A program made the translations under genes and the position numbers. A stretch of 40,389 nucleotides of DNA from Campylobacteraceae bacterium (GTDB taxonomy: Bacteria; Campylobacterota; Campylobacteria; Campylobacterales; Sulfurovaceae): the NCBI GenBank assembly GCA_027035765.1, contig JALVUD010000013.1:1-40389 (forward strand), in the 5' to 3' direction. Below are positions 4,067 to 32,165 of the stretch, in pieces. Each line of letters begins with the position of its first letter. The first letter of the stretch is position 1. Below the pieces are notes generated by a model. The model had not been told where the DNA came from, searched no databases, and worked only from the letters and a program-made list of their open reading frames with translations.

Positions 4067-4148
4067 TGTATGTGATAAAATGCTCCGAACGTCCCTTTTC
4101 ACCGCTTGACTCCACCGAGTCCTCTTCCATCGATTGCAAGGAGTACCG

Positions 4149-5435
4149 ATGAATCCGACCGACTACCGCTTCAGAGCGAGGGATGCTCTGGTAGGCCTTC
4201 AGTTCCTCTTCGTCGCCTTCGGGGCCCTGGTCCTGGTGCCGATCCTCACGGGTCTCGATCCCAATGTCGCCCTCTTCACCGCCGGATTGGGGACCCTGAT
4301 CTTCCAGCTCACCACCCGGCCCAAAGTTCCGCCCATCTTTCTCGCCTCCTCCTTCGCCTTCATCGCGCCCATCATCTACGGCGTGCAGAAGTGGGGGATC
4401 GCCGGGACGCTGAGCGGTCTGGTGGCTGCCGGACTCTTCTACGGTCTGCTGAGCCTGCTGATCCGCCTGCGGGGGAGTGATTTCATCCTCAAGCTCCTGC
4501 CGCCGGTGGTCACCGGACCGGTCATCATGACCATCGGTCTGATCCTGGCGCCCGTAGCGGTCCATATGGCCACCGGCCACACCGGCGACGGCAAGACGGT
4601 CCTGGTCCCCTTCGGCACCGCCATCACCGTCTCCATGATCACCCTCGCCGCGACGATCCTGGCGACCCTGCTGGGTCGGCGGATGATCCGACTGCTGCCG
4701 ATCCTCATCGGACTGGTGGTCGGCTACGGCGTCGCCCTGCTCTTCGGGATCGTCGATTTCGGTCCGATCCATAAAGCCCCTTTCTTCGCCGTCCCCTCCT
4801 TCGTCACCCCCGAACTCAACTGGGAAGCGATCCTCTACATCCTCCCCATCGCCATCGCCCCGGCGGTGGAGCATATCGGCGATATGCTGGCCATCTCCCG
4901 GGTCACCGGCGAGGACTACCTGAAAAAGCCGGGCCTGCACAAGACCCTGCTGGGCGACGGACTGGCCACCAGTGCCGCTTCGTTCCTCGGGGGGCCGCCC
5001 AATACCACCTACTCCGAGGTCACCGGCGCCGTCACCATCACCCGGGCCTTCAACCCCGCCATCATGACCTGGGCGGCGATCTTTGCCATCATCCTGGCCT
5101 TTTTCGGGAAGCTCGGAGGATTCCTCCAAACCATCCCCGTCCCGGTCATGGGCGGGATCCTGCTGCTGCTTTTTGGCGTCATCGCCTCGGTGGGGATGAA
5201 CACCCTGGTCCACGCCCGGACCGACCTCAGCGAACCCCGCAACATGATCATCGTCTCCCTGATCCTGGTCTTCGCCATCGGGGGGATGAGCTTCGATTTC
5301 GGCGGGGTGGCCTTCAGCGGGATCGGGCTGGGAGCCGTCACGGGCATTCTGCTCAACCTCCTCCTCCCCAAAGGGCGCCCCAGCGACGAACCGGAGCTGG
5401 AAGAGGCCATCCCCCCGATGGAGACCGAGCTCTGA
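4149..5435 (+). CDS. uraA: Uracil permease, NCS2 (nucleobase:cation symporter-2) family
   Basis: The product is 428 residues from the ATG at 4149, preceded by AAGGAG with good spacing. It is a polytopic inner-membrane protein with many hydrophobic segments, as expected for the 14-helix NCS2 fold. The family signature lies near residue 285 (ASFLGGPPNTTYSEVTGAV), with the conserved substrate-binding Glu region AIAPAVEHIGDM upstream. It imports uracil with protons and feeds the divergent upp. A GC-rich hairpin follows the stop. The gene symbol rests on context and family; xanthine specificity is less likely next to upp. Confidence 0.92.
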   Translation: MNPTDYRFRARDALVGLQFLFVAFGALVLVPILTGLDPNVALFTAGLGTLIFQLTTRPKVPPIFLASSFAFIAPIIYGVQKWGIAGTLSGLVAAGLFYGLLSLLIRLRGSDFILKLLPPVVTGPVIMTIGLILAPVAVHMATGHTGDGKTVLVPFGTAITVSMITLAATILATLLGRRMIRLLPILIGLVVGYGVALLFGIVDFGPIHKAPFFAVPSFVTPELNWEAILYILPIAIAPAVEHIGDMLAISRVTGEDYLKKPGLHKTLLGDGLATSAASFLGGPPNTTYSEVTGAVTITRAFNPAIMTWAAIFAIILAFFGKLGGFLQTIPVPVMGGILLLLFGVIASVGMNTLVHARTDLSEPRNMIIVSLILVFAIGGMSFDFGGVAFSGIGLGAVTGILLNLLLPKGRPSDEPELEEAIPPMETEL

Positions 5436-8302: not shown

Positions 8303-9484
8303 ATGCTCAACCGTTTCGACCCCCAGGCCTCCGCCGGACTCTCCCCGCTGGAGCTGCGGGTCTATACCTCCCGCCTCCTGGGACAGGAACCCGACCTGGT
8401 CCTCCACGGCGGGGGCAACACCTCCGTCAAGATCGACGACACCCTCTACGTCAAAGGCAGCGGCTGGAACCTGGACACCATCGAAGCCCCCGGATTCGCC
8501 CCCGTGGCGATGGATGCTCTGCTGGAGATGGCACAGAGGGAGCAGCTCAGCGACACGGAGATGGTAGCGCTGCAGCGAGAGGCCCTCCGTGACCCCAACG
8601 CTCCCAATCCCTCCATCGAAGCGATCCTCCACGCCCTGATCCCCTTTGCCTACGTGGATCATACCCATGCCGATGCGGTGGTGACCATCTCCAACACTCC
8701 CGACGGACGGCGGCGGCTGGAGAAGCTCTACGGCGAAGGGATGCTGATCGTCGATTACGTCATGCCCGGTTTCGAACTGGCCCGGACCGTCAGAGAGCTG
8801 ACCGAAGGGATCGACTGGCAGGCGCTGGAGGGGATTCTCCTCATGCATCATGGCGTCTTCACCTTCGACGACGACGCCCGGCGCTCCTACGACCGGATGA
8901 TCGGGATCGTCACCCGGGCCGAGGAGTATCTGGAATCGCAAGCCCCTCTGCACCTCGCCGCGCCGGAGGCCGAACCGATCGCCCCCGGGACCCTGACGGC
9001 CCTCTCCGAAGCGGTCTCCGGACTGCGGGGCACGACGTTGGAAGCCCGCTCTATCCAGTCCCCGGAAGCCCTAGCCCTCTCCCACCGTCCCGGAGTGCGG
9101 CGTATCGTCCACAGCGGGGGACTGACCCCCGAACATGTCATCCGGATCAAACCCTTTCCCGCTCTGCTCAATCCCGACCGGCCCCTCGAGGGGATCGACA
9201 GCTTCGCCGAAGAGTACGAAAGCTATTTCCGGACCCATGCGGAGCCAAAACACCGACGGCTCGATCCCGCCCCGCGCTGGGGGGTCATGCCGGGCCAAGG
9301 CGTCCTGATCTTCGCCGCCGGCGAGAAGGAGCGGCGTATCGTCACCGATATCGTCGAACATACGATCCGTGCCATGCTCCGTGCCGAGCAGATGGGGGGA
9401 TGGCACAGCCTCAGCCCCGCCGAGCTCTTCGCCATGGAGTACTGGGAGCTGGAGCAGGCCAAACTGCGCAAAAAAGCTGATTAA
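8303..9484 (+). CDS. Stand-alone class II aldolase (aldolase half of the bifunctional aldolase/SDR family)
   Basis: The product is 393 residues, with AAGGGAGG before the start. The class II aldolase/adducin fold is clear: the phosphate-binding region LVLHGGGNTSVKIDDTLYVK (residues about 33-52), then DHTHADA supplying an HxH metal pair near residue 119, then ILLMHHGVFTFDDDARRSY with the third His. The C-terminal region, including EYWELEQAKLRKK, matches the linker that in bifunctional aldolase/short-chain dehydrogenase proteins leads into the Rossmann domain. Here the protein stops at that boundary, so the dehydrogenase half is missing. Relatives cleave ketose phosphates such as rhamnulose 1-phosphate; the substrate here is unknown. 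The next gene is an LsrG-like protein, and an AI-2 kinase lies nearby. Confidence 0.82.
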   Translation: MLNRFDPQASAGLSPLELRVYTSRLLGQEPDLVLHGGGNTSVKIDDTLYVKGSGWNLDTIEAPGFAPVAMDALLEMAQREQLSDTEMVALQREALRDPNAPNPSIEAILHALIPFAYVDHTHADAVVTISNTPDGRRRLEKLYGEGMLIVDYVMPGFELARTVRELTEGIDWQALEGILLMHHGVFTFDDDARRSYDRMIGIVTRAEEYLESQAPLHLAAPEAEPIAPGTLTALSEAVSGLRGTTLEARSIQSPEALALSHRPGVRRIVHSGGLTPEHVIRIKPFPALLNPDRPLEGIDSFAEEYESYFRTHAEPKHRRLDPAPRWGVMPGQGVLIFAAGEKERRIVTDIVEHTIRAMLRAEQMGGWHSLSPAELFAMEYWELEQAKLRKKAD

Positions 9485-27697: not shown

Positions 27698-28921
27698 ATG
27701 ACAACCATTATCCTCCCCGACTATCTCTATACCCCCGAGGGCTATCTGCGGGAAAAGGCCGTGGCCTTCGATGACCGTATCCTGACGATCGACACACCGG
27801 AGCGACTCCGGGAGAAGTATCCCGAAGCGCCTTTGATCGACACCGGCAGTGATTCGATCCTCTATCCCGGCTTCATCAACGTCCATACCCATCTGGAGTA
27901 CTCCGCCAATCGCACCCGGCTGGAGTACGGAGATTTTCTCCGCTGGCTCGAGAGCGTCATCCGGGAGCGTGACACCCTGGTTCCCCAGGCCGACAACGCC
28001 CTGATGGAGGCCGCCTGCCGCCAGATGCTTCACTGCGGGATCACCGGCTTCGGGGCTGTCTCCACCTTCGGCACCGACCTGGAGGTCTGCCGCCGGGTCC
28101 CCCAGCGGGTGACCTACTTCAACGAGATCATCGGCTCCAATCCGGCAACCGTAGATATGCTCTATCAGGATTTTCTCCAGCGTCTCGACGCTTCCCGGAG
28201 CTGCTCTCCTGAGGAACGCATCACTCCCGCCGTGGCGATCCATGCCCCCCACTCCACCCATCCCGCGATGGTCCGACGGGCCGTGGCACTGGCCAGGGAG
28301 GAACAGCTTCCCCTCTCCGCCCACTTCCTCGAGTCCCCCGCCGAGCGACAGTGGCTCGAAGAGGCAGCGGGGGACTTCAAGCCCTTTTTCGAAAACTACC
28401 TCAAGAGCGATCGTCCCGTCACCACCATCGAGGCCTTTCTCAGCCAGTTCGACGGCTATCCTTCTCTTTTTGTCCACGCGGTGCAGACCACAGAGGAAGA
28501 ACGGGGCCATCTGGCCAAGCAGGGGCACCATGTGGCCCACTGTCCCCGCTCCAACCGTTTGCTCGGCTGCGGCCGCTACCCGCTGGAGGATCGGCGGGTT
28601 CCGGTAGCCCTGGCCACCGACGGACTCAGTTCCAACTGGAGCCTGAGCCTTTTCGACGAAATGCGAGCGGCACTGATGCTCCACTACCGGGCACCGCTGC
28701 AGGAGCTGGCCGATCTGCTGCTCAGAGCCGTCACCCTGGAGGCGGCCCGCTCCATCCGCAGCGAGGCCGGACGGATCGAGGCGGGAGCCCCCGCCGACTT
28801 CGCCCTCATCCGCCTGCCCCAGCCCTGCCCCCGGGAAGAGGATCTGGCCCTGCAGACCATCCTGCATACCCATCAGGCGGAACGGGTCTGGATCGCCGGA
28901 GAAGAACTTCCCCTGGAATAG
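27698..28921 (+). CDS. mqnF: Aminodeoxyfutalosine deaminase-type amidohydrolase (MqnF-like)
   Basis: The product is 407 residues. Amidohydrolase metal ligands are seen: FINVHTHLEYSA (HxH near residue 63), IHAPHSTHPAMV (His near residue 185), SAHFLES (His) and ALATDGLSSNWSLSLFDEM (Asp). This last block is typical of the futalosine-pathway deaminases of Campylobacterota. It removes the adenine amino group of aminodeoxyfutalosine in menaquinone synthesis. It is monocistronic by position. A related deaminase substrate cannot be excluded. Confidence 0.8.
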   Translation: MTTIILPDYLYTPEGYLREKAVAFDDRILTIDTPERLREKYPEAPLIDTGSDSILYPGFINVHTHLEYSANRTRLEYGDFLRWLESVIRERDTLVPQADNALMEAACRQMLHCGITGFGAVSTFGTDLEVCRRVPQRVTYFNEIIGSNPATVDMLYQDFLQRLDASRSCSPEERITPAVAIHAPHSTHPAMVRRAVALAREEQLPLSAHFLESPAERQWLEEAAGDFKPFFENYLKSDRPVTTIEAFLSQFDGYPSLFVHAVQTTEEERGHLAKQGHHVAHCPRSNRLLGCGRYPLEDRRVPVALATDGLSSNWSLSLFDEMRAALMLHYRAPLQELADLLLRAVTLEAARSIRSEAGRIEAGAPADFALIRLPQPCPREEDLALQTILHTHQAERVWIAGEELPLE

Positions 28922-28995
28922 AATCCCAGGTTCAGACATCGTCTGATGTTACCAAAAGTAAAGTTTGAAACTTTGAACCTCATAAGTAATTTTTA

Positions 28996-29024
28996 TTGTA
29001 AGCCTTTATTGATATAAATATTAT
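28996..29024 (+). promoter_or_regulatory. Sigma-70 type promoter of the yeeE operon
   Basis: TTGTAA (28996-29001) and TATTAT (29019-29024) are separated by exactly 17 bases in an AT-rich stretch, 42 bases before the first yeeE-like start. Confidence 0.6.
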
Positions 29025-29065
29025 AGAATTACAGACCCAATGACTAGATAAAGGAGTCCAACGAT

Positions 29066-29599
29066 ATGGAAAAGAAATACTGGAATCCCTACTTTGGAGG
29101 GGTGGTTCTGGGGACGATGCTTTTTCTCGTCTTCGCCATCGCTTCCCAGGGCTTCGGCGCCAGCGGGACTTTCTCCCGTGCCACGGCTCAGCTACTGGTC
29201 AACAGTGACAAGAGCTGGCTGGACAACGCCTACATCGCCAGCTACTTTCGCCACGGCGGCAGCGCGCTCAACAACTGGACCGTCATCGAGACGATCGGGA
29301 TACTCTTCGGCGGCTTCGTCAGCGCCCTGCTGGCCGGACGTCTAATGATCCGTCCCGACAAGTCGCCCGACTATCCGGTCGCCAAGCGCTTTCTCTGGGC
29401 CTTCATCGGCGGAATGATCATCGAGTTCTCCACCCGTCTCACCCGTGGCTGCACCAGCGGCCAGGGACTCGACGGGATGGCCACCTTCTCGGTAGGGACC
29501 TGGATCTTCATGTTCGCCGTCTTCGGCTCGGCGTTGATCTTCTCGCCCCTTTTCCGCAAGCAGTGGGTGGGCGGCGAGAAAAAAGAGGGAGGTGAGTGA
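29066..29599 (+). CDS. YeeE/YedE family sulfur-compound carrier, first half
   Basis: The product is 177 residues, preceded by AAAGGAG. Four or more hydrophobic segments surround the family motif FSTRLTRGCTSGQGLDGMAT (residues about 115-135), with its conserved Cys. YeeE/TsuA proteins carry thiosulfate through a cysteine-lined pore in the inner membrane. Here the family's usual fused protein is split into two half-size genes. It overlaps the second half-gene by one base at TGATG. It fits a sulfur-oxidising or sulfur-assimilating lifestyle. Confidence 0.85.
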   Translation: MEKKYWNPYFGGVVLGTMLFLVFAIASQGFGASGTFSRATAQLLVNSDKSWLDNAYIASYFRHGGSALNNWTVIETIGILFGGFVSALLAGRLMIRPDKSPDYPVAKRFLWAFIGGMIIEFSTRLTRGCTSGQGLDGMATFSVGTWIFMFAVFGSALIFSPLFRKQWVGGEKKEGGE

Positions 29600-30198
29600 T
29601 GGATTTCATTCTGCCTCTTTATAAAAACGCCCTCATCAGCCCTGAAGCGAACATGTTTTTCGCCGTCGTGATGGGCTTCGCCTTCGGTTTCGTCCTGGAA
29701 CGCACCGGTTTCACCCGCTCCCAGTACATCGCCGATACCTTCTACTTCCGAAGCCTCGCTGTGCCCAAGATCATGGGAGTGACGGTCATCACCGCTACGA
29801 CGTGGTTCATCATCTTCGCCTGGATGGGATGGATCGACCTCAGTGCGCTTTTCACCCCCAAGACCTACGTCTGGCCCTATCTCTTCGGCGGAATGCTCTT
29901 CGGCCTGGGGATGGTGATGTCGGGGTACTGCCCCGGTACCGCCGTGGCGGGTCTGGGAACGGGAAAAAGTGACGCCCTGGTCTTTCTGCTGGGACTTTTC
30001 GGCGGGGCGTTCCTCTACTTCCTGCTCTATCCCATGATTGCCGATTTCGCCTCCAGCAGCAATCTGGGAGTCCTCAAACTCCACGATCTCTTCGGAGGCA
30101 ACGAGTACATCTCATACATTCTGACCGTACTGCTGGAATCGGGAATCATCGGCTTCCTGGTCCTGCTGCAAAAACTGACAAACAAAGGAGAAAAATAA
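29599..30198 (+). CDS. YeeE/YedE family sulfur-compound carrier, second half
   Basis: The product is 199 residues from the ATG at 29599, preceded by GAGGGAGG. The in-frame GTG at 29596 is also possible. Hydrophobic segments are separated by short loops. The conserved Cys motif is GMVMSGYCPGTAVAGLGTGK (residues about 106-125), and RTGFTRSQYIADTFYFR is a typical family loop. It should pair with the upstream half to make one carrier. The stop is two bases before the next start. Confidence 0.86.
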   Translation: MDFILPLYKNALISPEANMFFAVVMGFAFGFVLERTGFTRSQYIADTFYFRSLAVPKIMGVTVITATTWFIIFAWMGWIDLSALFTPKTYVWPYLFGGMLFGLGMVMSGYCPGTAVAGLGTGKSDALVFLLGLFGGAFLYFLLYPMIADFASSSNLGVLKLHDLFGGNEYISYILTVLLESGIIGFLVLLQKLTNKGEK

Positions 30199-30199
30199 T

Positions 30200-30595
30200 A
30201 TGAAAACCAGTCCCGTAGCCGTCGCCGGCGGTATCCTGATCCTCATCGGCGGTCTGGCCCTGGCCTTCTACACCGGTACCAACGGCCAGGCCCTCGTCGC
30301 CGCCAAAGCCAAAGCGGTGGAGAAGTATGTCTCCATGACCGAAAAAGCCCTCAATTCCGGAGACCTGAAACAGGCGGAGAAGTATGCCAAAGAGGCTCTG
30401 GCGGTCGATCCCAGAAACCGCCAGGCTCTGGGCGAGTTCAAAAAGGTCGCCCTGGCCTCCTGCCCCAAAGCGGCCCCCGCACCCGCAGCGGCCCAGCCTG
30501 CCGCCGCTCCGGCAGCCAACGCCGCCAAACCTACAGCCGCCCCGGCCGCCGCCAAGCCTGCAGCGGAATCCGAGGAGGAGATGGGCTGTATCTAA
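30200..30595 (+). CDS. Membrane-anchored TPR-like protein with two C-terminal-half cysteines
   Basis: The product is 131 residues, preceded by AAAGGAG. One transmembrane helix (residues about 6-24) is followed by a TPR-like helical pair (KYVSMTEKALNSGDLKQAEK, then YAKEALAVDPRNRQALGEF). Then come Cys88 in LASCPKAAP, a long Ala/Pro linker, and the penultimate Cys130 in EEEMGCI. No family is recognised. It is the third gene of the YeeE operon. The cysteine at the very C-terminus on a flexible arm recalls DsrC-type sulfur carriers (which end in GCV), an analogy rather than homology. The orientation in the membrane is uncertain; with an N-in anchor the cysteines face the periplasm. Confidence 0.7.
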   Translation: MKTSPVAVAGGILILIGGLALAFYTGTNGQALVAAKAKAVEKYVSMTEKALNSGDLKQAEKYAKEALAVDPRNRQALGEFKKVALASCPKAAPAPAAAQPAAAPAANAAKPTAAPAAAKPAAESEEEMGCI

Positions 30596-30639
30596 TCACT
30601 CTCTCTATGCGTATTGGGCAAATAGTTCAAACCTGATTG

Positions 30640-30687
30640 GCCGGGAATGATTTCCCGGCTCCAAAAGAAGGCGTTGCAAAGCAACGC
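30640..30687. repeat. Palindromes GCCGGGAA/TTCCCGGC and GCGTTGC/GCAACGC
   Basis: GCCGGGAA TGAT TTCCCGGC (30640-30659) and GCGTTGC AAA GCAACGC (30671-30687) lie 45 bases after the YeeE operon, between convergent genes. The first is a variant of the 22156-22175 palindrome. Both may act as terminators. Confidence 0.6.
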
Positions 30688-30694
30688 ACACCAA

Positions 30695-30722
30695 AATTCT
30701 CCATTCCCAATTCTCCATCCTC
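30695..30722. repeat. Heptanucleotide repeats (AATTCTC / CATTCCC)
   Basis: Four consecutive 7-mers are read: AATTCTC, CATTCCC, AATTCTC, CATCCTC, followed by AATT. The exact seven-base period links them to the arrays at 7461, 32820, 33023 and 34539. Confidence 0.75.
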
Positions 30723-30789
30723 AATTACACTGGTGCCACCTATGTGACGTCAGTCCTTCGCGTTTTCTTTTTTCTTTACTTCGTTTCTC

Positions 30790-30817
30790 TTTTTCTTTGT
30801 CGCGAAACAAAGAAAAA
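30790..30817. repeat. AT-rich hairpin TTTTTCTTTGT/ACAAAGAAAAA
   Basis: An 11-base-pair perfect stem with loop CGCGAA lies within a longer pyrimidine/purine inverted repeat, about 60 bases from the end of hisD. With runs of T on both strands it could be a bidirectional terminator for the YeeE operon and hisD. Confidence 0.6.
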
Positions 30818-30869
30818 ATAAATGAAGAGGAAGGGCTGAGAACTAACGAGGGGATCTACCCACTATCCG

Positions 30870-32165
30870 CTACTCACTCTCCAACCGGATCCTCACACTC
30901 GCCTCATGGGCGGTAAGCCCCTCGGTATGGGCGAGGAGAGCGCAGGGTTCGCCCAGCTCCCTGATCCCCGCTTCACTCATCATGATCAGCGAAGATTTCT
31001 TCAGAAAATGCTCCACACTCAGGGGGGAGTAGAACCTCGCCGTGCCGCCGGTGGGCAGGGTGTGGTTGGGACCGGCGATATAGTCGCCGATGGGCTCGGG
31101 GGTGTAGCGGCCCAGGAAGATGGCCCCGGCATGCTTGATGCTGCCCAGCAGCTCCATGGGCGAAGCGGTCATCACCTCCAGGTGCTCGGGAGCGATCCGG
31201 TTCATCAGATCCACCGCTTCCGCCATATCGGCGGCAACGATGATGGCCCCCCGCTCTTCGATCGATTTGCGGGCGATGGCCTCACGTTCCAGGGTCTTCA
31301 GGGCCTTCTCCACCTCGTCGTTGACCCGGTTGGCCAACTCCGCATCCTCGGTGATGAGGATCGAGCTGGCCATCTCGTCGTGCTCCGCCTGGCTCAGCAG
31401 ATCCATCGCCAGCCAGTCGGGACGCGCCGTGGCGTCAGCCAGGATGCCGATCTCGCTGGGTCCGGCGATCATGTCGATGTTGACCTCGCCGTAGACCAGC
31501 TTTTTGGCCGTGGCGACGAAGATGTTGCCCGGCCCGGTGATCACGTCCACCTTGGGGATCGTCTCGGTCCCGTAGGCCATGGCCCCGATGGCCGATGCGC
31601 CGCCGACTTTGTAGACCTTGTCGATCCCGCAGAGGTGGCAGGCGGCCAGCAGCAGTTCGTTGATCTCGTTGTCCGGAGTGGGCGTACAGACTACGATCTC
31701 CTCCACTCCGGCGACGATGGCCGGCACAGCGTTCATGAGCAGGGAGCTGGGATAGGCCGCCTTGCCGCCGGGGATATAGAGCCCCGCCCGATCCACCGGT
31801 GTGACCCGCTGCCCCAGCATGGAACCGTTTTTTTCGTACTCGAACCAGGAGCGGGGCATCAGCTTCTCGTGATAGGCCTTGATCCGGTCATAGGCCAGAT
31901 GCAGAGCCTCCCGAAGCTCCGGGCTGATGGCTTCGTAGGCCATTGCCATCTCCGCCGGATCGACCTGCAAAGCCGCATCGTCGGCAGGCTCCCAGCGGTC
32001 GAAGCGGGCGATATGACGGCGCAGGGTGGCATTGCCCCCCTCCCGGATCTCCCGAAGCAGCGTCGCCACCACCTCCGTCACATTGTCGATATCCATCGCC
32101 CCCCGTTTGAGAAGCTCTCCGAACTCCGCCGAAAAATTTTCATCGCCGCTGTAATAGATTTTCAT
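30870..32165 (-). CDS. hisD: Histidinol dehydrogenase
   Basis: The product is 431 residues, normal length. It performs the last two oxidations to histidine with NAD and zinc. Landmarks are VDRAGLYIPGGKAAYPSSLL, KVGGASAIGAMAYGTETIPK, VDVITGPGNIFVATAKKLVY, DMIAGPSEIGILAD, LLSQAEHDEMASSILIT (zinc and catalytic residues), and AGPNHTLPTGGTARFYSPLS. No other his gene adjoins it. Confidence 0.97.
   Translation of the reverse strand: MKIYYSGDENFSAEFGELLKRGAMDIDNVTEVVATLLREIREGGNATLRRHIARFDRWEPADDAALQVDPAEMAMAYEAISPELREALHLAYDRIKAYHEKLMPRSWFEYEKNGSMLGQRVTPVDRAGLYIPGGKAAYPSSLLMNAVPAIVAGVEEIVVCTPTPDNEINELLLAACHLCGIDKVYKVGGASAIGAMAYGTETIPKVDVITGPGNIFVATAKKLVYGEVNIDMIAGPSEIGILADATARPDWLAMDLLSQAEHDEMASSILITEDAELANRVNDEVEKALKTLEREAIARKSIEERGAIIVAADMAEAVDLMNRIAPEHLEVMTASPMELLGSIKHAGAIFLGRYTPEPIGDYIAGPNHTLPTGGTARFYSPLSVEHFLKKSSLIMMSEAGIRELGEPCALLAHTEGLTAHEASVRIRLESE

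Follow-up and report, generated by a model that had tools for sequence, protein, structure and literature searches.

A split YeeE-type transporter accompanied by a membrane-tethered arm with a conserved Gly-Cys end, a probable sulfur importer with its own carrier cysteine

YeeE/TsuA with its partner YeeD/TsuB (6LEO, 8K1R) belongs to the same transporter family as the genes described here and has pore cysteines, at positions 293 and 91 according to the accessible text of the SoxT paper (PMC11582611). The cysteine of the small partner YeeD/TsuB works beside the YeeE pore (PMC11073785, accessible part). The same SoxT paper, in its accessible part, describes PmpA/PmpB and YedE1E2 as pairs of short YeeE halves, each half having one conserved cysteine; the PmpA/PmpB halves are of about 130 aa each, and that text describes no C-terminal Cys arm. 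The periplasmic carrier SoxY (SoxYZ, PF13501) has a mobile C-terminus that bears a Gly-flanked cysteine, and its GGCGG end is an established sulfur-binding C-terminus (PMC6067878, accessible text). Two published loci come close. In Ca. Thermonerobacter psrABC is followed by two PF04143 domains and a rhodanese, the order that we find in several loci of our sample (L095 and L131 are examples); this gene order is thus already known, and the accessible text of its description (PMC6338057) says nothing of a lost catalytic cysteine or of a cysteine at the C-terminus. Hden_0679, encoded beside soxT1A, is a periplasmic thiol protein with a Cys motif at the very C-terminus, but it is of the DsbA/thioredoxin type with CxxC motifs and its transporter is a full-length SoxT (PMC11582611, same accessible part). 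The YTD cluster of sulfur disproportionators was considered and set aside: its two hypothetical and its DsrE-like proteins were modelled as a DsrEFH-like complex, not as an arm protein (PMC13047784, accessible part). In the accessible parts of the open-access literature we found no description of a C-terminal Cys on YeeE partners or of a YeeE-rhodanese fusion.

The operon studied here lies in a window of 40,389 nucleotides (the whole stretch of DNA that was analysed), which is contig 13 of a 2.03 Mb genome. In a scan with YeeE-A the closest named relatives of the window were Nitratifractor sp., a member of Sulfurovaceae, and other Campylobacterota metagenome-assembled genomes. YeeE is split, and its partner is membrane-anchored and predicted to lie outside, unlike YeeD, a TusA-type protein that sits in the cytoplasm at the transporter's exit. 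The features, all on the plus strand, are as follows.

29066-29599, plus strand: YeeE-A, PmpA-like C-terminal half of YeeE, 177 aa (ORF; PF04143)
29450-29452, plus strand: codon (TGC) of the predicted YeeE-A pore cysteine Cys129 (from the sequence)
29596-30198, plus strand: YeeE-B, PmpB-like N-terminal half of YeeE, 200 aa (ORF; PF04143)
29929-29931, plus strand: codon (TGC) of the predicted YeeE-B pore cysteine Cys112 (from the sequence)
30200-30595, plus strand: Gly-Cys arm protein, 131 aa (ORF; orthologues and alignments; AlphaFold2 model)
30212-30280, plus strand: predicted membrane helix, residues 5-27 (AlphaFold2 helix; hydrophobic segment with Lys in the N-tail)
30284-30460, plus strand: TPR-like helical region, residues 29-87 (AlphaFold2 helices; weak TPR matches below cut-off)
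30461-30463, plus strand: Cys88 codon (kept in a minority of orthologues)
30470-30583, plus strand: disordered low-complexity arm, residues 91-128, with an acidic patch at its end (pLDDT; linker conservation)
30584-30592, plus strand: terminal Gly129-Cys130-Ile131 (Gly-Cys invariant in orthologues)

Both halves belong to the YeeE/YedE transporter family, scoring above the curated cut-off of 27 bits of Pfam PF04143 (Sulf_transp). YeeE-A (76.4 bits) covers positions 174-307 of the 310-position profile, the C-half, and YeeE-B (53.6 bits), which begins with a GTG overlapping the YeeE-A stop, covers positions 4-143, the N-half. Separate genes for the two halves are the arrangement of the PmpAB type, and the length departs from that type, with 177 and 200 aa here against about 130 each. 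Each half has a single cysteine, Cys129 in RGCTSGQ of YeeE-A, invariant in 14/14, and Cys112 in GYCPGTA of YeeE-B. A profile built from YeeE-A relatives matches residues 235-313 of StYeeE (6leo), and by family alignment Cys129 would correspond to pore Cys293 in the YeeE of S. thermophila and Cys112 to pore Cys91. A selenoprotein of the YeeE family, whose Sec lies in a GUxSG motif, is listed in a review (PMC13188914, accessible part); this Sec position probably equals the YeeE pore position and may be a sign of its reactivity. The flanking genes checked in the window encode an amidohydrolase, a 3-dehydroquinase and a histidinol dehydrogenase, with no sulfur gene among them, and a promoter and terminator scan of 28850-31000 gave counts at shuffle level.

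The third gene encodes, in this order, a membrane anchor, TPR-like helices with Cys88, an Ala/Pro-rich arm and the end EEEMGCI followed by TAA. The earlier note had described such a protein (TM helix, TPR-like region, Ala/Pro arm, MGCI end) behind a split YeeE pair, and the open reading frames and the AlphaFold2 model bear this out. The model (mean pLDDT 65, pTM 0.41) has helices at 5-27, 29-53, 56-69 and 74-87, and its pLDDT is below 50 from residue 91 on, as expected of disorder. The TPR assignment is by likeness: the protein alone scores 17.5 bits against a TPR cut-off of 27, and a profile of its relatives matches designed TPRs. No match to SoxY (PF13501) or to the DsrC profile was obtained at E values up to 1, so that the SoxY fold is not found, while the Gly-flanked C-terminal cysteine typical of SoxY is present in all Campylobacterota orthologues (28/28). 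A match to the TcdA/TcdB pore (Pfam E 1e-4, 21.3 bits, under the cut-off of 27) was rejected as compositional chance.

To define the orthologues, 100 relatives were searched with the arm protein, which gave a match in 23 genomes; 17 of those matches are complete orthologues behind a split YeeE and one (L012) is cut. Six further rows (L021-L026, E 0.002-0.008) were dropped as chance TPR or Ala/Pro matches, as were many weak rows inside other proteins in a profile search of 397 genomes of the class. In that search the arm-protein profile and the YeeE-A profile were strong in the same eight genomes. Among 28 aligned orthologues, Gly129 and Cys130 are invariant, although the arm after A86 varies from 22 to 52 residues and the mean fraction of the commonest residue falls from 0.54 in the helical region to 0.29 in the linker, against 0.92 at positions 128-130. 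An invariant end on a drifting linker looks like a functional tail, and judged from these sequences the Gly-Cys end is more than a chance feature. The earlier note had asked whether Cys88 and Cys130 are invariant; this holds for Cys130 and fails for Cys88, which is present in 12/28. Its penultimate cysteine applies to the 12 closer relatives with a final Ile, while in the other 16 the cysteine is the last residue. Orthologues lacking the C-terminal cysteine, by which the note proposed its idea could be refuted, were sought and none was found among complete Campylobacterota genes.

A terminal selenocysteine produced by stop read-through was considered. In the 24 GC-ended genes listed, of which 18 belong to the YeeE type and six to a second GC-ended family, it was rejected: their stops are TAA or TAG and never TGA, and the codon of the terminal Cys alternates between TGT and TGC. 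TGA does serve as the stop of some partners in other phyla. The second small GC-ended family (L057-L062 and L073, the latter at 8461-8856 on the minus strand) comprises proteins of 110-132 aa that end in QFEGC or QYEGC (7/7), several with apparent cleavable signal peptides by reading. Their operon encodes a PhsA-like molybdoenzyme and a PsrB-like FeS protein, followed in several cases by a Rieske protein, a cytochrome b and a multihaem cytochrome c; in L073 the gene stands back to back with a YeeE arm operon. Other neighbours recur around the Campylobacterota arm genes. A repeat protein is encoded directly 3' of the arm gene in L008, L010, L011 and L013 (Sel1 repeats in L011), and a desulfoferrodoxin/superoxide reductase-like gene directly 5' of the arm operon in L078, L079, L080 and L083 (PF01880 for L080).

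To see which partners carry the tail in the wider subfamily, loci were collected with YeeE-A alone, a scan blind to the tail that confirmed 567 relatives, and the best 80 were analysed; these are the top of the ranking, are not independent and include many close relatives and many Anaerolineales. Five loci were set aside as incomplete (L064, L065, L075 and L083, cut or with an assembly gap, and L135, cut), which leaves 75 complete partners, and L152 (G421), with an internal TAA in YeeE-A at a short contig end, enters no count. In these best 80 of 567 loci, 74 of the 75 complete partners have a cysteine within the last three residues. All 21 complete third genes of the 25 Campylobacterota-type loci (L064-L088) end in GC or GCI, and the partner there is the TPR-like protein. 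The 55 loci of other phyla (L089-L143) comprise 35 in which YeeE-B is fused to a rhodanese-like domain, all 35 ending in GC plus 0-2 residues; 19 with a separate TM-anchored rhodanese, 18 of which have the tail cysteine; and the cut L135. The cysteine of the CP[GT]T motif of YeeE-B is present in 35/35 fusions, again among the best 80 of 567 loci. Endings include KKKEGC, GGGCG, SGGCG, SMGC, GGCGG and GGCG, and two partners have endings much like that of SoxY (SGGCGG in L108, GGGCGG in L110). By the record labels of these best 80 of 567 loci, the arm is fused to or anchored beside the transporter in about a dozen phyla. Three loci were kept in the counts although possibly mis-binned, namely L098 (a 'Heimdallarchaeota' MAG), L070 ('Cyclobacteriaceae') and L071 ('Thiotrichaceae').

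As background, the best 80 loci contain 579 complete non-overlapping ORFs with a length of 150 aa or more. Of these, 47 end in GC plus 0-2 residues; judged by inspection, 44 of the 47 are YeeE partners, two are SoxY and one is unrelated. As a further control, 21 Campylobacterota loci (L153-L173) of another split-YeeE subfamily were sampled: a C-terminal Cys was found in 0/20 loci with ORFs listed behind the pair (L166 has no listed ORF), and in L156 an ORF that lies upstream of the YeeE genes has the end KKCI. Two plasmid or genome records outside the sample differ in what they say. Behind YeeE-B of Gemmatirosa kalamazoonensis (plasmid search) stands a separate rhodanese, Cys-less apart from its end RRRGC, which agrees with the sample. 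Plasmid pSCD of Sulfuricella denitrificans (L185) disagrees, since its related YeeE pair is followed by an unrelated gene and is without an arm protein; the tail is thus not universal. The pSCD pair has RGCTSG and CPGT motifs and adjoins an FAD-binding oxidoreductase and an RND pump.

Individual loci deserve mention in their own right. The exception among the separate rhodaneses, L103 (4997-5578), is the sole complete partner of the 75 without any cysteine, and a second contig of the same MAG (L106) carries a copy ending in RDGC. The L098 MAG, labelled Heimdallarchaeota, encodes an 83-aa TM protein ending in EEEEGC (4110-4358); a dead rhodanese with a GC end and a secreted one with two domains are encoded next to it. 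The L070 and L071 contigs carry the Campylobacterota-type operon and sit within that clade, by mis-binning or transfer.

The rhodanese partners retain the fold and have lost the reactive residue. PF00581 matched in 32/35 fusions and in all five separate partners scanned, and the active-site column holds no catalytic Cys in any of the 54 partner domains (Ser in 36, Gly in 8, Asp in 7, and Asn, Ala and Pro in one each), while 53 of the 54 have the tail Cys. Seven secreted rhodaneses from the same loci, taken as reference, all have the catalytic Cys (7/7). This suggests a shift of the reactive cysteine out of the rhodanese loop and onto a mobile arm. For the fusion protein of Vibrio hangzhouensis, an AlphaFold2 model (mean pLDDT 83.7, pTM 0.78) has YeeE-like helices, an extra TM helix at 210-234, a rhodanese and a disordered tail from 413. 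In Foldseek rhodaneses were listed first with modest E-values (5e-3 or weaker), and by VIA-align the best rhodanese match reached Z 12.2 (2.1 A, 102 aa), while 8k1r, the complex of YeeE with YeeD, scored Z 9.9 (3.0 A, 178 aa). A YeeE-A tree of 63 rows (60 of the 80 loci plus three outgroup rows) places the TPR type in a single change on a weakly supported branch (29/0). Fused and separate rhodaneses are interleaved in it, with at least two changes each forced by well supported branches, so the Gly-Cys tail outlives domain fusion or fission.

The side of the membrane was read from the charges around the helix. The 35 fusions have 170 Lys/Arg in the 20 residues before the added helix against 76 in the 20 after it, with an excess before the helix in 32/35. 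In every separate partner and every protein of the TPR type, the short N-tail that precedes the single hydrophobic segment contains one or more Lys/Arg; the difference around the helix is small or absent in them, and their topology would follow from the signal-anchor rule in its usual form. On these charges, and on the apparent signal peptides of the second GC-ended family, the tail is predicted to be periplasmic.

The genes around the system are often those of sulfur metabolism. Secreted rhodaneses of two types occur in 7/25 and 6/25 Campylobacterota loci, and in the other phyla a PhsA/PsrA-like molybdoenzyme (20/55), a PsrB-like FeS protein (20/55) and NrfD (19/55) are encoded nearby. The molybdoenzyme of L095 scores 545 bits against PhsA, under the cut-off of 694, and upstream of L116 and L102 lies a member of the octaheme tetrathionate reductase family TIGR04315 (586 and 551 bits against a cut-off of 375). 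SoxY is found in 19/19 genomes with the system, which may be general in these families, and that of the window's genome ends in VGGCGG. A separate observation concerns G000, where contig 26 encodes a TusA domain fused to a MerT-like membrane domain (L183, 1498-2190; PF01206 and PF02411) at most 2.5 kb from a selD match with an in-frame TGA.

Taken with the earlier note's picture of a tethered Cys arm paired with a Cys-lined YeeE, which gains from the invariant cysteine (28/28), its recurrence on unrelated partners and on a transporter half, and the sulfur-enzyme neighbours, these data make it probable that the operon encodes a split YeeE-type sulfur importer with a dedicated, membrane-tethered, SoxY-like cysteine arm that presents sulfane sulfur to the pore. 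YeeE-A and YeeE-B would form the pore with one cysteine each. The N-terminal helix would anchor the arm protein and hold its small helical domain at the periplasmic face; the flexible arm ends in Gly-Cys. The terminal Cys would most likely take up sulfane sulfur or a thiosulfate adduct in the periplasm, the source being an active secreted rhodanese, Sox or a thiosulfate- or polysulfide-converting enzyme, and the arm would swing this sulfur to the pore mouth, from where it may pass by the pore cysteines to the cell interior. In other phyla the tail sits on a rhodanese-fold domain without catalytic Cys, separate or fused to YeeE-B. Binding of the sulfur donor may be the task of this fold, with the cysteine provided by the arm; where a TPR-like hairpin takes the place of the rhodanese, an active secreted rhodanese is often encoded nearby. 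The tail is disordered in both AlphaFold2 models (arm protein and V. hangzhouensis fusion), and no reach into the pore is visible in them. Further observations count against this reading: the window's flanking genes that were checked, none of them for sulfur, the L103 partner without cysteine, the pSCD pair without an arm protein, and the TusA/YeeD type, cytoplasmic partner of classical YeeE, which is below cut-off or missing in seven of 19 genomes that have the system. Import as the direction is in line with the characterised split YedE1E2, which speeds the import and not the export of zero-valent sulfur and needs both cysteines (PMC10812762, accessible part).

A bolder form of this reading is possible, and we put it forward tentatively: a covalent swinging-arm transporter, in which the rhodanese Cys has been relocated to the tail, loading takes place in the periplasm and unloading into the two-cysteine pore, as a group-translocation of sulfur. 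Sulfur would reach the tail either within the emptied pocket of the rhodanese or from another, active rhodanese. The part open to exchange would then be the docking module, whether a TPR-like hairpin or a rhodanese and whether free-standing or fused, and not the Gly-Cys arm.

A different cargo, selenium, tellurium or a soft metal, with the terminal Cys, the free carboxylate and the acidic patch as ligand, appears unlikely. It would fit the highest NCBIfam score of YeeE-A, which is to the selenium YedE/FdhT model (52 bits, far below the cut-off of 350), a neighbouring multihaem cytochrome that resembles ExtM of a selenite/tellurite operon (301 bits against a cut-off of 800), and the selenoprotein SaoC, which ends in Cys-Cys-COOH and is encoded beside ABC transporter parts (PMC13188914, accessible part of the review). 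However, six of the 19 genomes that have the system score below cut-off for selD, and G013, G023 and G032 of these six are near-complete. The context is one of rhodanese, SoxY and PhsA-like proteins, and not all tails share the acidic patch: several of those in other phyla are Lys-rich.

Transport in the opposite sense has quite a low probability in our estimate. The pore would pass sulfane sulfur out and the arm collect it for Sox, for PhsA/PsrA-like enzymes or for octaheme tetrathionate reductase; enzymes of these periplasm-acting types are encoded beside many copies, and the arm is predicted on the outer side. In seven of the 19 genomes that have the system, near-complete G013, G023 and G364 among them, the TusA/YeeD acceptor is missing or scores below cut-off. 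Against such a relay stand the import by YedE1E2 given above and that of thiosulfate by classical YeeE (PMC11073785, accessible part).

We consider it just as doubtful that the arm handles no cargo and is a redox gate or sensor, whose tail Cys forms a disulfide or mixed polysulfide with a pore Cys and thereby closes the channel or signals. The arm is long and disordered, and 14/35 fusions have only two cysteines, those of the pore and the tail; yet a rhodanese fold and secreted active rhodaneses recur together with the arm, which suits cargo handling, and a gate would presumably have no need of Gly-flanked, SoxY-like endings.

The DsrC/TusE-like two-cysteine carrier of the earlier note, to which the mobile C-terminal arm with its Cys and the Cys88 of the window and near relatives had pointed, is highly improbable, because Cys88 is kept in only 12/28 and a conserved second cysteine is lacking, the family match is absent, the arm is predicted to be periplasmic and Cys is last, not penultimate, in 16/28. 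The C-terminal GGCGG arm of SoxY is the better analogy, although, unlike SoxY, the arm here is of another fold, membrane-tethered and tied to YeeE, by way of a TPR-like protein, a dead rhodanese or a fusion.

For a sulfur importer with its own cysteine arm, the reading that we prefer, the point of interest is how periplasmic sulfur is passed to YeeE/SoxT transporters: according to the SoxT paper, thiosulfate's second sulfur atom gets into the cytoplasm 'by unknown means' (PMC11582611, accessible part). The conserved arm makes a periplasmic hand-over of sulfur to YeeE/SoxT testable by one point mutation. If the reading is true, a transporter with a built-in carrier arm would join the sulfur carriers SoxY, DsrC, TusA and LbpA, and a family of rhodaneses without catalytic cysteine would be explained.
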